64,000 bases of DNA from Streptomyces lycii. GTDB lineage: Bacteria > Actinomycetota > Actinomycetes > Streptomycetales > Streptomycetaceae. The DNA lies in the NCBI RefSeq assembly GCF_009735685.1, contig NZ_WHPN01000301.1, forward strand, positions 42,277-106,276, given 5' to 3'. Position 1 is the first letter of the stretch. Each line of letters starts with the position of its first letter. This document shows, one piece after another, positions 53,400-59,493 of the stretch. Position numbers and translations under genes: made by a program. Under the pieces are notes generated by a model. That model was not told where the DNA came from. It did not search any database and worked only from the letters and a program-made list of their open reading frames with translations.

Positions 53400-53625
53400 G
53401 GCGGGACTCCCCCGATCGGTGGGACTGACAGGGCTGCGGGTGACACCGCGGCGGTGACCGGCGGGGTCGCCACCGGGAGACAACTATCTCGGTCAGCATG
53501 CCCCGCGGCCAGGGTTCTCGTACGCCCGGCGCGATGATTATTGGTCGATACCACTGACATGGAGCACGGGGAACGGGCGCCGCCCGCAACCGTGCCGGGC
53601 GGTGTCGCCCGCGCGACGCGGCGCC

Positions 53626-53730
53626 GGGCCCGCCTCCGGACCGGGCGCACCCCCGGACCGGGCGCACCTCCAGTCCGGGCCCGCCTCCGGACCGGGTCAC
53701 CTCCCGGCCCGGCCCGCCTCCCGACCGGGC
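53626..53730. repeat. 17-bp tandem repeat, about six units
   Basis: GGGCCCGCCTCCGGACC-type units fill 53626-53730 of the 367-base gap 53400-53766. TTGGTCGATACCA near 53544-53556 lies in the probable promoter region of the peptidase gene. Confidence 0.8.
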
Positions 53731-53766
53731 GCGGCCGCGGAGCCCTCCGGCCGTACCGTTGGACGG

Positions 53767-54354
53767 ATGGACACCTCCGGTCTCGCCCCGCTCGCCGCCC
53801 GGCTGCGCGCCCTGCCGCCGTCGTGCGGCCCCGTGCGGCTGGTCGGGCTGGACGGGCACGCCGGTTCCGGCAAGAGCACGCTGGCCGCCGGGCTGGCGGA
53901 GGCGCTCGGCGGCGCGCCGGTGCTGCATCTGGACGATCTGGCCACGCACGACGAGCTGTTCGGCTGGACCGGGCGGCTGGCCGAGGAGGTGATCGCGCCT
54001 CTCAGCCGCGGCCGGACCGCACGGTACGGCGTCTACGACTGGCACCGCCGCCGGTTCACCGCGCGGCGCGAACTGCCGCCCGAGCCGGTGGTGCTGGTCG
54101 AGGGCGTGGGCGCCGGGAGGCGTGCCGTGCGGCCGTGGCTCGCGCTGCTGCTGTGGCTGGAGGTGCCCGCCGGCACGGCCTGGGAGCGCGGACGGCGGCG
54201 CGACGGCCCGGAGCTGTCCGAGTTCTGGAACGGCTGGATCCGGACGGAGCGCGCGCACTTCGCGAACGACCCCTCGCGCGCCCATGCTCAGGTCCTGGTA
54301 CGGCAGGTGCCAGAGGGATTTGTGTGGCTGCCGGGGCCCGCCGAGGCCGAATGA
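53767..54354 (+). CDS. P-loop kinase, uridine-kinase-like
   Basis: The 195-residue protein has a Walker A motif 'GLDGHAGSGKSTLAAGL' near residue 27, followed by 'VLHLDDL' and a lid region ('ERGRRRDGPELSEFW'). It resembles uridine kinase and other nucleoside or small-molecule kinases; substrate unknown. ATG at 53767 has no ribosome site, and TACCGT at 53753-53758 just upstream could be the -10 of a leaderless transcript. Confidence 0.8.
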   Translation: MDTSGLAPLAARLRALPPSCGPVRLVGLDGHAGSGKSTLAAGLAEALGGAPVLHLDDLATHDELFGWTGRLAEEVIAPLSRGRTARYGVYDWHRRRFTARRELPPEPVVLVEGVGAGRRAVRPWLALLLWLEVPAGTAWERGRRRDGPELSEFWNGWIRTERAHFANDPSRAHAQVLVRQVPEGFVWLPGPAEAE

Positions 54355-54441
54355 GAACCCTCCTCCTTCACCGACCGTAACCGGCCGCGGTCGATGCGCA
54401 ATCCAGCGCCGGTGGAGCGCTCACGGGTCTCCGAACTTCGC

Positions 54442-54471
54442 TTGACCTGGGGGCCGTACAGGTCTTACGTT
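54442..54471 (+). promoter_or_regulatory. promoter for a small transcript
   Basis: TTGACC (54442-54447) and TACGTT (54466-54471) are separated by 18 bases, a good vegetative promoter match. The predicted start near 54478 leads straight into two hairpins. Confidence 0.6.
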
Positions 54472-54477
54472 CTTATT

Positions 54478-54548
54478 GAGCGGTCGTCAGAAACCGCCCG
54501 CAGACGCGAAGCCCCCGGTTGTTCCCCCGTGATCGGGGGCTTCGTTCT
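54478..54548 (+). ncRNA. candidate small RNA with two C-rich hairpins
   Basis: A transcript of about 70 bases would contain a first stem GCGGT/ACCGC (54480-54497) and a second, strong stem at 54507-54544 whose loop carries a run of five C. No reading frame fits. The shape recalls the actinobacterial 6C RNA motif, but the C-runs are shorter than its definition, so the assignment is tentative. Confidence 0.5.
54507..54544 (+). terminator. rho-independent-like hairpin
   Basis: CGAAGCCCCCG (54507-54517) pairs perfectly with CGGGGGCTTCG (54534-54544) around a 16-base loop, followed by TTCTGCTCC. It can end the small transcript and also read-through from the kinase gene. The remainder of the gap to 54836 has no further strong signal. 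Confidence 0.7.
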
Positions 54549-54836
54549 GCTCCGGAAACGCCCACCACGCCGCATTTCGGGCACAGCCGGCCGCCGATGG
54601 ATCACTCTCCGTCACCGCCGTTTCCCGCCCTCCGCAAGCCCCTTTGAAGCCCGCCTTCCGCTCGCGCACGCCGTCCCACCTGCGCGCGGCCCCTTCGGCT
54701 GCCACCCCCTGCGCGGGTACGATGCCGTACGGGAGGATGTGGCAACTTCCGTCCACAGCGCGGCGGTTCATACTGGCTGCGGTCCGGCGCCCGCCCGGCC
54801 GCCGCCACGGGGGCACGGTAGTGGGGGACGGACGTG

Positions 54837-56753
54837 ATGGACTTCGGCGGTCAGGGCCGGGACGCCCCGGCCGAACTGGCGTGGCTGCGCGCCGTCGACG
54901 CGTACACCATGGGCGCGTACGCCCAGGCCGAGGAGGAGTTCCGGTCCGCCGTGCGGGACGACCCCGGCATGGCCGACGCCTGGCTCGGGCTGCACGCCCT
55001 GCGCGTCGACCCGACGACCGCTCTGCTGCGGATGTACCGGCACCGCGACCGCTTCGGTGAGCAGCGCGCCCGGCACCGCCGCAAGCTGAACTCCTGGTAC
55101 TGGCTGGGCTGGTGGGTGCAGCCCGTGCTGGAGAGCCCCCGCGATCTGCTGCTGGCCCACGCCTCGCACTGGCTGGACGGCCGGCACGTACCGGAACTGG
55201 ACCGCGCGCTCGCGGCCTGCCCGCCCGTCGACGCAGACCCGCAGGTGCGCTTCCTGCACGCCTGCCGCGCCTATCTGGTCAAGGACTGGGAGCGGCTCGT
55301 CCGGCACACCGAACCGCTGCTGGAGGACCCGCTGCTCGGCATCGAGGCGGGCCTCTTCGGCGGCATGGCACGCGTCCGGCTGGAGATGTACGGGCAGGCC
55401 GAGCCGCTGCTGTCCGCGGCGCTCATGCGCTGCCGCAGCGAGCAGCCGCAGCGCAAGGAGTTGCGCTACTGGCTGGCCCGCGCGCACGAGGGCACCGGCC
55501 GCAGCGCGGCGGCCCTCCCCCTCTACCGGGCCGTGCACCGGGTCGACCCGGCGTTCATGGACACCGCCGCCCGGCTGGCGGCGATAGCCGACGGGGACGG
55601 GCTCGACACGGGGGACCTGGCCGTGGTCTCCCTCGCCGGAGCCGGCGGCCCGGACCCGCTGGACGCGACCGCCGACCCGGACCCGCTCCTCCCCGACGCG
55701 CCGCCCGACGGCCGCGACCAGCCGGTGTATCCCGCCCCCGACGGCCTGCCCGGCGCCGGCGGGCTGCTCCCGGGCACCGCGCCCGTCGACGCCGACGGCA
55801 TACGCGAGAAGGCCGTCATCCCGGTCCAGCCGTCCGTACCGCGGCTGCCGGACGGTCCGCCCGATCCGGTGCTGCTGGCGGAGGCCCTGGACGAACTGGA
55901 GCGCATGGTGGGCCTGGAGCCCGTCAAGCGGCAGGTACGGGCCCTGTCCGCGCAGCTCCACATGGCGCGGCTGCGGGCGGGCGAGGGCCTGCCGGTGCAG
56001 CCCCCGAAGCGGCATTTCGTCTTCTCCGGCCCGTCCGGTACGGGCAAGACCACCGTCGCCCGCATCCTCGGCCGGGTCTTCTACGCGCTCGGGCTGCTCG
56101 GCGGCGACCACCTGGTGGAGGCGCAACGGGCGGACCTGGTCGGCGAATTCCTCGGCCAGACCGCCGTCAAGGCCAACGAACTCATCGACTCGGCGCTCGG
56201 CGGGGTGCTCTTCGTGGACGAGGCGTACAGCCTCGCGGGCACGGGTTACAGCAAGGGTGACGCGTACGGCGACGAGGCCCTCCAGGTGCTGCTGAAGCGA
56301 GCCGAGGACAACCGCGACCGGCTCGTCGTCATCCTGGCGGGCTATCCGGAGGGCATGGACCGGCTGCTCACCGCCAATCCGGGGCTCGGCTCCCGTTTCA
56401 CGACCCGCGTCGACTTCCCCAGCTACCGGCCGCTGGAACTGACCCGGATCGGGGAGGTGCTGGCCGCGGAGAACGGCGACTGCTGGGACGAGGAGGCCGT
56501 GGACGAGCTGCGCAGCATCAGCGGCCATGTGGTCGACCAGGGCTGGATCGACGAGCTGGGCAACGGCCGCTTTCTGCGCACCCTGTACGAGAAGAGCTGC
56601 GCCTACCGCGACCTGCGGCTCTCCGGTTACAGCGGTACCCCGAGCCGTGAGGATCTGGCGACGCTGCGGCTGCCGGACCTGATGCAGGCGTACGGCGAGG
56701 TGCTGTCGGGCCGGGGCCCGATGGACCCCGGCCCGCCCGATCCGCTGACCTGA
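54837..56753 (+). CDS. EccA/CbxX-type AAA ATPase with TPR domain
   Basis: The 638-residue protein has an N-terminal alpha-helical TPR-like half ('AYAQAEEEFRSAVRDDPGMADAW' pattern, about 1-265), an acidic Pro-rich linker, and a C-terminal CbxX/CfqX AAA domain: Walker A 'GPSGTGKTT' near residue 398, Walker B 'VLFVDEAY', and arginine-finger region 'NPGLGSRF'. This matches EccA of type VII secretion, yet no other secretion gene is nearby. ATG at 54837 is used; the GTG just before it is equally placed behind GGGGGA. Confidence 0.9.
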   Translation: MDFGGQGRDAPAELAWLRAVDAYTMGAYAQAEEEFRSAVRDDPGMADAWLGLHALRVDPTTALLRMYRHRDRFGEQRARHRRKLNSWYWLGWWVQPVLESPRDLLLAHASHWLDGRHVPELDRALAACPPVDADPQVRFLHACRAYLVKDWERLVRHTEPLLEDPLLGIEAGLFGGMARVRLEMYGQAEPLLSAALMRCRSEQPQRKELRYWLARAHEGTGRSAAALPLYRAVHRVDPAFMDTAARLAAIADGDGLDTGDLAVVSLAGAGGPDPLDATADPDPLLPDAPPDGRDQPVYPAPDGLPGAGGLLPGTAPVDADGIREKAVIPVQPSVPRLPDGPPDPVLLAEALDELERMVGLEPVKRQVRALSAQLHMARLRAGEGLPVQPPKRHFVFSGPSGTGKTTVARILGRVFYALGLLGGDHLVEAQRADLVGEFLGQTAVKANELIDSALGGVLFVDEAYSLAGTGYSKGDAYGDEALQVLLKRAEDNRDRLVVILAGYPEGMDRLLTANPGLGSRFTTRVDFPSYRPLELTRIGEVLAAENGDCWDEEAVDELRSISGHVVDQGWIDELGNGRFLRTLYEKSCAYRDLRLSGYSGTPSREDLATLRLPDLMQAYGEVLSGRGPMDPGPPDPLT

Positions 56754-56869: not shown

Positions 56870-58042
56870 TCAGCCCACCGGCGCCCGCGGCCTCCGTTCC
56901 CGGGGCGGCAGCTCCGGCTCCGGGCGCGGCCCGGAGACCCGGCCGCCGTCCCGCTCCGGCGCCCCCGCGGCGGAATCCGCCGCGGCGGCGCCGCCCGCCA
57001 CGGACCGGTGCGCCGGGTCGTGCGCCTCACCGACCAGCCGTTGCAGGACGTCCTCCAGCGTGACCAGCCCCAGCACCCGCCCCGACGCGTCGGCGACCTG
57101 GGCGAGATGCGTCGCCGCGCGCCGCATCGCGGTCAGCGCGTCGTCGAGCGGGAGGCCGGCGGGCAGTGTCGTCATCGGCCGCAGCACCCGCTCCGGCAGC
57201 GCGGTGTCGGCCTCGTCCCGTTCCAATACGTCCTTGACGTGCAGATAGCCGGTGAACCCGGAGGCGTCCGCCCCGTCCCCGGCGCGCACCGGGAAGCGGG
57301 AGAAGCCCGTCCGTACGGTCAGCTCCTCGATCTCCCGGGGCGTCACCCGCGGGCCCACCGTGACCAGCCCCGCCGGGTCGAGCAGGACCTCGGTCACGGG
57401 GCGGCTGCCCAGTCCCAGCGCGTCCGCGAGCCGTTCCCGGTCGCCGCGGCCGAGGAGTCCGGCCTCGCTCGAGTCCACGACGAGACGGCCCAGCTGCTCC
57501 CGGGTGTACACCGCTTCGACCTCGTCCTTCGGCTCCACCCGGAACAGCCCGAGCACCACCCGGGCACAGGCACCGAAAAAGGCCGTCACCGGCCGGCAGG
57601 GCCGGGCGAAGGCGACGAGCGCCGGAGCGAGCAGCAGCGCGGTGCGCTCCGGCGCGGCCATCGCGAGGTTCTTCGGCACCATCTCGCCGATCACCAGGTG
57701 CAGGGCCACGACCGCGGCGAGCGCGATCGCGTAACCCAGCGGGTGGACGACGGCGTCCGGCAGCCGCGCGGCGTGGAAGACGGGTTCCAGCAGCCCGGCC
57801 ACGGTCGGCTCGGCGACGGCGCCGAGCGTCAGCGAGCAGACGGTGATGCCGAACTGGGCGGCGGCCATCATCTGCGGGAGGTTCTCCAGCCCGTGCAGCA
57901 CGGTACGGGCGCGTGCGGAGCCCCCGGCCGCGAGCGGCTCGATCTGGCTGCGCCGGACGGAGACCAGCGCGAACTCGGCGCCCACGAAGAAGCCGTTGCC
58001 CAGCACCAGGAGTGCGGCGAACAGCAGTTGCAGCAGGCTCAT
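56870..58042 (-). CDS. CNNM-domain/CBS membrane protein (second of a pair)
   Basis: The 390-residue protein has a DUF21/CNNM transmembrane domain ('LLVLGNGFFVGAEFALVSVRRSQ', 'VALHLVIGEMVPKNLAMA') and a CBS pair ('FTGYLHVKDVLERDE', 'VLGLVTLEDVLQRLVGE'). It lacks a CorC/HlyC C-terminal domain and ends in a Pro/Arg-rich tail. Such proteins are thought to move or sense Mg2+ or other divalent ions. ATG at 58042 overlaps the partner's stop (ATGA). Confidence 0.92.
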   Translation of the reverse strand: MSLLQLLFAALLVLGNGFFVGAEFALVSVRRSQIEPLAAGGSARARTVLHGLENLPQMMAAAQFGITVCSLTLGAVAEPTVAGLLEPVFHAARLPDAVVHPLGYAIALAAVVALHLVIGEMVPKNLAMAAPERTALLLAPALVAFARPCRPVTAFFGACARVVLGLFRVEPKDEVEAVYTREQLGRLVVDSSEAGLLGRGDRERLADALGLGSRPVTEVLLDPAGLVTVGPRVTPREIEELTVRTGFSRFPVRAGDGADASGFTGYLHVKDVLERDEADTALPERVLRPMTTLPAGLPLDDALTAMRRAATHLAQVADASGRVLGLVTLEDVLQRLVGEAHDPAHRSVAGGAAAADSAAGAPERDGGRVSGPRPEPELPPRERRPRAPVG

Positions 58043-59493
58043 CGCGCGCCCGCCTCCACCCGGTCCCCGGCGCACCGGGAACCGCCGTCCGCGCGCCGGT
58101 CACCGGCCTCCCGCCCGGTGTCCGCCCCGGGAGCACCGTCCCGGTCAGCGCCGCGGGGGCCGCCGGGCACACCCGCGGGCCGGTGCGCGGCAGCCGTCCG
58201 TACCAGGCGGACCCGCTCCGCGCGGTGGTGCGCCACCTCGCACACCACCAGCCGCCAGCCGGGCAGCCCGGCCGTGTCCCCCGGTTCCGGGATGCGGCCG
58301 AGGAGACCGGCGACGAGCCCGGCGACCGTCTCGTACGGTCCGTCCGGCGCGTCGAGGCCGATGCGGCGGAGCGCGTCCAGCCGGCAGCCGCCGTCGGCGT
58401 CCCACGCGGGATGCCCGTGCTCGCCGGGCGCCGGGGCCAGCTCCGGCCGGTCGGCGCCGTCGTGTTCGTCGCGCACCGCGCCGACCAGTTCCTCGACGAT
58501 GTCCTCCAGCGTCACGACACCGGCGGTGCCGCCGTACTCGTCGACGACGACGGCGATCGGCTGCTCGCCGCGGAGCCGCTCCAGCAGCGGCTGGACGGGC
58601 AGTGTTCCCGGTACGAGCAGCGGCGGCACGGCGACCCGCCCGACCGGGGTGCGCAGCCGCTCCCCCGCCGGCACGGCGAGCGCGTCCTTCAGGTGCACCA
58701 TGCCGACGACCTCGTCCAGCCGGCCGCGGTGCACCGGGAAACGGGAGAGCCCGGTGGCGCGGGTGAGGTTCAGGACGTCCTCGGCGGTCGCGGAGGACTC
58801 CAGGGCGCTCACCCGGACCCGGGGCGTCATGACGTGCTGTGCCGTCAGTTCGCCCAGCGCCAGGGTGCGGACGAAGAGGTCGGCGGTGTCCTGTTCCAGG
58901 GCACCGGCCCGCGCGGAGTGCCGGGCGAGGGAGACGAGTTCGCCGCGGGTGCGGGCGGAGGCGAGTTCGTCGGCGGGCTCCACTCCGGCGGCCCGGACGA
59001 GCCGGTTGGCGAGGCCGTTGAGCAGGGCGATGACGGGCCGGAAGAAGCGGGAGAAGGCGTGCTGCGGTCCGGCCACGAAACGGGCGACCTGGAGCGGGCG
59101 GGACACCGCCCAGTTCTTGGGCACGAGTTCGCCGATGACCATCTGGACGGCGGAGGCGGTGACCACGCCGATCACGAGGGCGGCGCCCGGCACGGCGCCC
59201 GCGGGAAGCCCGGTCGCGGCGAGGGGCCCGGCCAGCAGCCGGGCCAGCGCGGGTTCGGCGAGCATGCCGACGACCAGTGAGGTGAGGGTGATGCCGAGCT
59301 GGGTGCCGGAGAGCTGGAAGGACAGCTCGCGCAGCGAGGCGACGACGGTACGGGCCCGGCGGTCGCCGTCGGCCGCGGCGCGCTCGGCCTCCGGGCGGTC
59401 GACGGTCACGAGGCCGAACTCGGCGGCCACGAAGAACCCGTTGGCGAGGACGAGTAGCAGGGCCGCGGCGAGCAGGAGAAGAGGGACGATCAT
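58039..59493 (-). CDS. CNNM-domain/CBS/CorC membrane protein (first of a pair)
   Basis: The 484-residue protein has the DUF21/CNNM domain ('LLVLANGFFVAAEFGLVTVDR', 'MVIGELVPKNWAVSRPL' pattern), two CBS motifs ('VVGMVHLKDALAVP', 'VVTLEDIVEELVGAV') and a CorC/HlyC-like C-terminus ('AWDADGGCRLDALRRIG', 'LPGWRLVVCEV'). ATG at 59493 has GGAGG upstream. It is coupled to the shorter homologue, so the two may form a heteromeric transporter. Confidence 0.93.
   Translation of the reverse strand: MIVPLLLLAAALLLVLANGFFVAAEFGLVTVDRPEAERAAADGDRRARTVVASLRELSFQLSGTQLGITLTSLVVGMLAEPALARLLAGPLAATGLPAGAVPGAALVIGVVTASAVQMVIGELVPKNWAVSRPLQVARFVAGPQHAFSRFFRPVIALLNGLANRLVRAAGVEPADELASARTRGELVSLARHSARAGALEQDTADLFVRTLALGELTAQHVMTPRVRVSALESSATAEDVLNLTRATGLSRFPVHRGRLDEVVGMVHLKDALAVPAGERLRTPVGRVAVPPLLVPGTLPVQPLLERLRGEQPIAVVVDEYGGTAGVVTLEDIVEELVGAVRDEHDGADRPELAPAPGEHGHPAWDADGGCRLDALRRIGLDAPDGPYETVAGLVAGLLGRIPEPGDTAGLPGWRLVVCEVAHHRAERVRLVRTAAAHRPAGVPGGPRGADRDGAPGADTGREAGDRRADGGSRCAGDRVEAGAR

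Follow-up and report, generated by a model that had tools for sequence, protein, structure and literature searches.

A probable small RNA gene of Streptomyces with a conserved promoter, a covarying stem and an invariant C-rich loop, likely orthologous to scr1434

Does the segment between a kinase-like gene and an AAA ATPase gene of Streptomyces lycii encode a small RNA of its own and, if so, which one and through what part would it act? The segment lies at 54442-54548 of a 64,000-nucleotide stretch of DNA (the window, to which all coordinates refer), and a sequence-only reading had proposed there a candidate small RNA with its own promoter and terminator, resembling the 6C RNA class in outline. 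A function is known for only a few Streptomyces sRNAs, as stated in the available part of PMC8388888.

All elements of the predicted gene lie on the forward strand. The -35 element TTGACC (54442-54447) and the -10 element TACGTT (54466-54471) were assigned by direct reading and conservation, with an 18-base spacer between them, which confirms the TTGACC-N18-TACGTT motif of the sequence-only reading at 54442-54471. That reading had also placed two stable hairpins within ten bases of the promoter, the second with a C-rich loop, and both were recovered. Hairpin 1 (54480-54497; GCGGU-N8-ACCGC in the RNAalifold consensus of 20 sequences) begins 8 bases past the -10 hexamer and has a variable loop, here CGUCAGAA. 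Hairpin 2 (54507-54544; 15 pairs, from the fold and stem pairing) is both terminator-like and loop-presenting, reads CGAAGCCCCCGGUUG-UUCCCCCG-UGAUCGGGGGCUUCG as arm, loop and arm, and is followed by the tail UUCUG (54545-54549), a weak U tract that differs among other genera. The predicted transcript is ~ 72 nt long (54478-54549), with both ends estimated, the 5' end at ~ 7 nt past the -10 element from the position of the promoter.

The whole segment 54442-54548 folded at -49.2 kcal/mol (z -3.32), the predicted transcript at -38.8 kcal/mol (z -4.78), and hairpin 2 by itself at -25.3 kcal/mol (z -4.90), and in each case none of 200 shuffles was as stable. Three terminator-like sites were found in 53800-55200 against 0.4 expected, two of which are registers of hairpin 2; this hairpin has the G+C-rich stem and following U run of an intrinsic terminator, with the U run short and imperfect. 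The terminator scan also listed an alternative self-switch, in which the CCCCC of the loop and the CCCCC of the stem would compete for GGGGG. It was rejected because two homologs from other loci (L092 and L101) have stems without a GGGGG partner, yet their loop is unchanged. The claim that the segment holds no reading frame needs rewording: two mechanical ORFs of at least 60 aa run across the hairpins (54394-54837 on the forward strand, 54487-54816 on the reverse), neither has a Pfam match, and homologs vary by 1- or 2-base indels in the hairpin 1 region.

A BLAST match to the core of the locus (~ 54434-54550) was present in 98 of 101 genomes, namely the genome itself and 100 others of the genus, and also in 6 of 6 named Streptomyces genomes (S. 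cyaneus, S. muensis, S. cyaneochromogenes, S. violaceoruber NRRL S-981, S. regalis, and S. caeruleatus). A covariance model built from 20 of the genus loci, R1, gave matches at E <= 0.001 in 129 of the 150 family genomes, with the weak matches read in part; two of its matches (L138 and L139) are unrelated hairpins without the loop and not members. Of the 17 family genera sampled, 15 yielded loop-bearing members on reading. None was found in genus g2, with one match lacking the loop and two listed genomes without a match, or in genus g10, whose one listed genome had no match. Across the class, R1 matched 59 of 296 genomes at the same threshold, 26 of the same genus and 33 of others. Reading covered the four best-scoring of these 33 (L085-L088), which have no loop and resemble ordinary terminators; the remaining 29 all score at most 34.9 bits. 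One of the four, L085 (the same place as L100), has a MiaB-like reading frame close by, named by eye. Neither the window nor four other-genus loci gave a match at the gathering score of any Rfam family. The sRNA is near-universal in the genus and present in most sampled genera of the family.

A strict E. coli-type scan of 53800-55200 found no promoter at all, so the case for the promoter rests on comparison. Three overlapping sets of loci were compared, into which copies were admitted by loop and stem and not by promoter, and TTGACC with a -10-like hexamer was present in all loop-bearing loci of each (30/30, 36/36, and 56/56). The spacer is 18 in all but two rows of the three sets, with a range of 17-18, and TTGACC is unchanged in all 21 rows of alignment A6. 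Among the genus BLAST loci that make up the first set, the -10 is TACGTT in 29 of 30 and TGCGTT once. TACGTT was likewise read in 34 of the 36 loci of the second set, which includes the window again (L051) and three other-genus loci (L072, L074, and L076). In the far set of 56 loci the hexamer is more varied, with TACGTT in 21, TAGGTT in 19, TAAGTT in 10, and others in 6. Directly upstream of TTGACC, and abutting it, an operator-like inverted repeat, GAGT-N6-ACTC, was observed in 15 of the 30 first-set and 11 of the 36 second-set loci (among L003-L031 and L049-L084); it is absent from the window and from all 56 far-set loci.

For the stem and loop of hairpin 2, R1 was run on 77 of 149 sources (the window and L001-L148). 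The sources omitted were L085-L088, L100 (read separately), L135 (the place of L092), and most further genus loci, as near-repeats; L076 and L107 are one place. Of the 84 rows returned, nine have no loop, six being opposite-strand readings of true copies and three coming from L138 and L139, the two sources that are exceptions to an otherwise constant loop TTCCCCCG (75 of 77). The rows were found with R1, which rewards pairing and holds the loop, yet the hairpins that it accepted outside the family at 37-47 bits lack that loop, and it accepted loop-bearing members at 32-36 bits; only the 75 loop-bearing rows were counted in the stem test, collapsed to 30 distinct arm pairs. Over the first 13 stem pairs, 387 of 390 cells are standard-paired. 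With the 3' letters shuffled, the paired fraction averaged 0.767 and none of 500 trials reached the observed value, and slid partners gave 0.36-0.51. Several stem pairs alternate between C-G, G-C, and T-A, while the 8-nt C-rich loop UUCCCCCG (54522-54529), together with its closing G, is constant across 15 genera.

The stem of hairpin 2 is nearly constant inside the genus (covariation term -0.35 in the consensus of 20 sequences), and the evidence for covariation therefore comes from other genera. Changes on both sides of a pair were seen within the genus in one of 21 consensus pairs, the innermost pair of hairpin 1, where both sides changed in five sequences and three are unpaired. The pattern across genera indicates, at the level of sequence comparison, that selection keeps the pairing of the stem and not its letters, and that it keeps the letters of the loop exactly. 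Because the stem letters are free while the loop letters are fixed, the loop is probably the functional part of the RNA.

The upstream neighbour encodes a P-loop kinase-like protein of 250 aa (53602-54354, forward strand; PRK06547 at 88.9 bits, below the cut-off of 173). The downstream neighbour, an EccA/CbbX-like AAA ATPase (54834-56753, forward strand; PF21545, PF00004, and PF17866 above their cut-offs), is followed by two adjacent CNNM/CBS-domain membrane proteins encoded convergently on the reverse strand (56870-59493). In Pfam terms, the order counted from the AAA gene is CNNM, CNNM, PH-domain, HisG, HisE, RibH, RibA, a PnuC/RibM-like gene (NMN-transporter-type), and riboflavin synthase, beyond which lie a RibD-type gene and then an FMN riboswitch. 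In S. coelicolor, riboflavin synthase is SCO1443 and has an FMN riboswitch, according to the accessible portion of PMC4681348. Since the AAA gene stands nine genes back from riboflavin synthase, it would be the ortholog of SCO1434, given the same gene order in S. coelicolor.

This count matters since the sRNAs scr1434 (S. coelicolor), sar6912 (S. avermitilis), and svr1031 (S. venezuelae) are named by their right flanking gene, as given in the available text of PMC3765725. The same text (Moody et al. 2013) describes them as having a very stable stem-loop with a C-rich loop, and as highly expressed, with northern blot signals strongest in aerial hyphae and during sporulation. The sRNA examined here stands directly left of the putative SCO1434 ortholog, as the name scr1434 requires, and its hairpin 2, at the stability given above, likewise carries a C-rich loop. 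Because gene order places it left of that gene, we consider it very likely to be the ortholog of scr1434, sar6912, and svr1031, matched by gene order and verbal description; the orthology, through synteny, and the transcript ends are both inferred. Its expression and timing would be carried over by analogy from the three other species, as reported in the part of PMC3765725 at hand. A literature search found no other papers naming scr1434, sar6912, or svr1031.

Taken together, the conserved promoter, the covarying stem, and the invariant loop argue for an independent structured sRNA gene and not just a terminator, and there is very probably a genuine regulatory sRNA at 54442-54548. What the sequence-only reading had proposed, an sRNA gene carrying a promoter and a terminator of its own, is thus strongly backed, both by the comparison of loci and by a probable ortholog in the literature; its 6C comparison goes no further than outline. 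The same reading had allowed that the hairpin might serve only to terminate the upstream kinase gene. Hairpin 2 begins 153 and ends 190 bases past the kinase stop, can be called terminator-like, and may well also end read-through. Yet termination would require neither that the loop stay fixed while its stem covaries nor that a promoter be conserved between the kinase gene and the hairpin, and northern blots show the likely orthologs of three species to be sRNAs, according to the consulted part of PMC3765725, which leaves a mere kinase terminator very improbable.

We regard it as unlikely, less strikingly so, that the segment acts in cis on the AAA gene, as its 5' leader or attenuator, with transcription from the promoter passing the hairpin under some condition only. 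In 84 of 85 loci the loop is followed downstream by the N-terminal motifs of the AAA protein, at a distance from the loop of 235-435 nt in the 82 loci measured; the odd one out, L100, is not a member. Some places are counted twice in this survey, and the members L015 and L077 were found in a separate reading. The AAA leader also has conserved G tracts. Against a leader stands a second conserved promoter-like block, GGTACGATGC (54716-54725, forward strand), which is constant in 12 of 12 aligned genus loci, has the counterpart GGTAC[GC]AT in seven of eight other-genus loci read (GCTACGAT in L101), and is preceded by a CTTCCGGAT block in some other-genus loci. This separate block probably serves the AAA gene as the -10 of a promoter of its own, which speaks against the sRNA as a mere AAA leader. 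The match of the G tracts to the loop also lacks specificity: over 12 loci the mean longest complement to the loop is 6.83, with 5.65 for block shuffles and 7.42 for the reversed loop, and because the reversed loop outscores the loop, the test does not single out the AAA leader as a cis target.

Between the sRNA and the AAA gene there is one further conserved block, TCACTCTCCGTCACC (54602-54616), in which the letters TnACnCnnnGTnAnC are invariant in the 12 aligned genus loci. It resembles the BldD box consensus, and is the window's only match to it at <= 1 mismatch, with 3.6 expected by chance.

The reading we favour, and think probable on the whole, is a stand-alone sRNA gene, orthologous to scr1434, that makes a ~ 72 nt RNA whose hairpin 2 presents its loop for pairing with G-rich mRNA and lowers translation. 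RNA polymerase would start at the fixed promoter, and transcription would stop at hairpin 2, which would have the double role of ending the transcript and holding out the single-stranded loop. During aerial growth and sporulation, the loop could then pair with G-rich stretches of mRNAs, for example at ribosome-binding regions, and such pairing would lower translation of the target mRNAs. Base-pairing with G-rich mRNA sites appears the most likely mode of action. The 11-mer CACGGGGGAAC has seven complementary sites in the genome, including the sRNA itself, against three for a reversed control, and an excess over the control was also found in 41 genomes; the control has no CG step, so the excess says little and is given little weight. 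One perfect 11-nt complement of the loop region (L152; G000:C81 near 5825) lies 38 nt before the ATG of a gene whose protein has NNH1 and NACHT domains (Pfam), and a second 11-nt complement lies inside the same gene; these may be chance matches.

The RNA might instead act through a protein bound to the invariant loop, as a sponge or scaffold, without mRNA pairing. An 8-nt loop and closing G held constant across 15 genera are arguably stricter than shifting mRNA targets need; no partner is known, and for C-rich loops of other bacterial sRNAs pairing with mRNAs has been reported, so that we see protein binding as a possibility of rather low weight. Reportedly, 6C RNA of M. tuberculosis pairs with mRNAs in this way. 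RNAIII is cited as another C-rich-loop sRNA that pairs with mRNAs, in the accessible part of PMC3765725. A related and similarly improbable proposal is that the family-wide role of the RNA is the display of a fixed 9-nt GUUCCCCCG, on a stem free to change its letters, to a single ancient molecule, whether a new RNA-binding protein of this family or one core RNA or mRNA site, and not to changing mRNAs. If the single-partner proposal were true, it would reveal a new RNA-chaperone or sponge system in bacteria that are not known to have Hfq.

The likeness to 6C RNA was checked with the covariance-model search that had been suggested for it. A cmscan of 54340-54850 with E up to 10 gave no match to RF01066, and none reached the gathering score in the window; the models that did match in that region, Rhizobiales-2 (18.4 bits), mir-8510, and P15, score well under their gathering thresholds and were put down to chance. 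6C RNA is defined by two stem-loops with at least six C apiece, in the available part of PMC8388888, and in S. coelicolor it is scr3558 (PMC8539372, from the portion available). Here there is one C-rich loop, with 5 C, the loop of hairpin 1 being CGUCAGAA. A 6C candidate sits elsewhere in the same genome (L040:1094-1174 in G000:C73; 38.8 bits, E 0.021, gathering 47), adjoining a CpaE-like gene. A whole-genome RF01066 search, in which 150 of 6688 candidates were scored without a match, was not relied on. That the segment is a divergent 6C RNA, as two hairpins, a C-rich loop, and an actinobacterial host might suggest, has almost no probability in light of the absent cmscan match, the single 5-C loop, and the separate 6C candidate, and membership was rejected on these grounds; the outline likeness is all that stands.

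What the comparison adds concerns an sRNA that is near-universal in the genus, widespread in the family, and has a likely ortholog with published development-linked expression: it singles out 8 nucleotides as the likeliest carriers of the function, which makes the question of what scr1434 binds directly testable. With 6C RNA, this sRNA shares the nature of a small actinobacterial RNA and a strong hairpin with a C-rich loop; it differs in having no covariance-model match, one C-rich loop of 5 C instead of two of at least six, and another locus. The sRNAs scr5583, sar2652, and svr5279, likened here by their description in the available part of PMC3765725, are likewise conserved in Streptomyces and have a C-rich terminal loop, but by name and flanking number are a different gene. 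For scr1434, sar6912, and svr1031, also likened by description, the same partial text reports expression and predicted structure in three species, and no function. They have in common with the sRNA described here the inferred place, the stable C-loop hairpin, and the character of an intergenic sRNA conserved between Streptomyces species. The RNA itself had thus already been seen in other Streptomyces, and what is new here is its family-wide range, the covariation of its stem, and its invariant loop.
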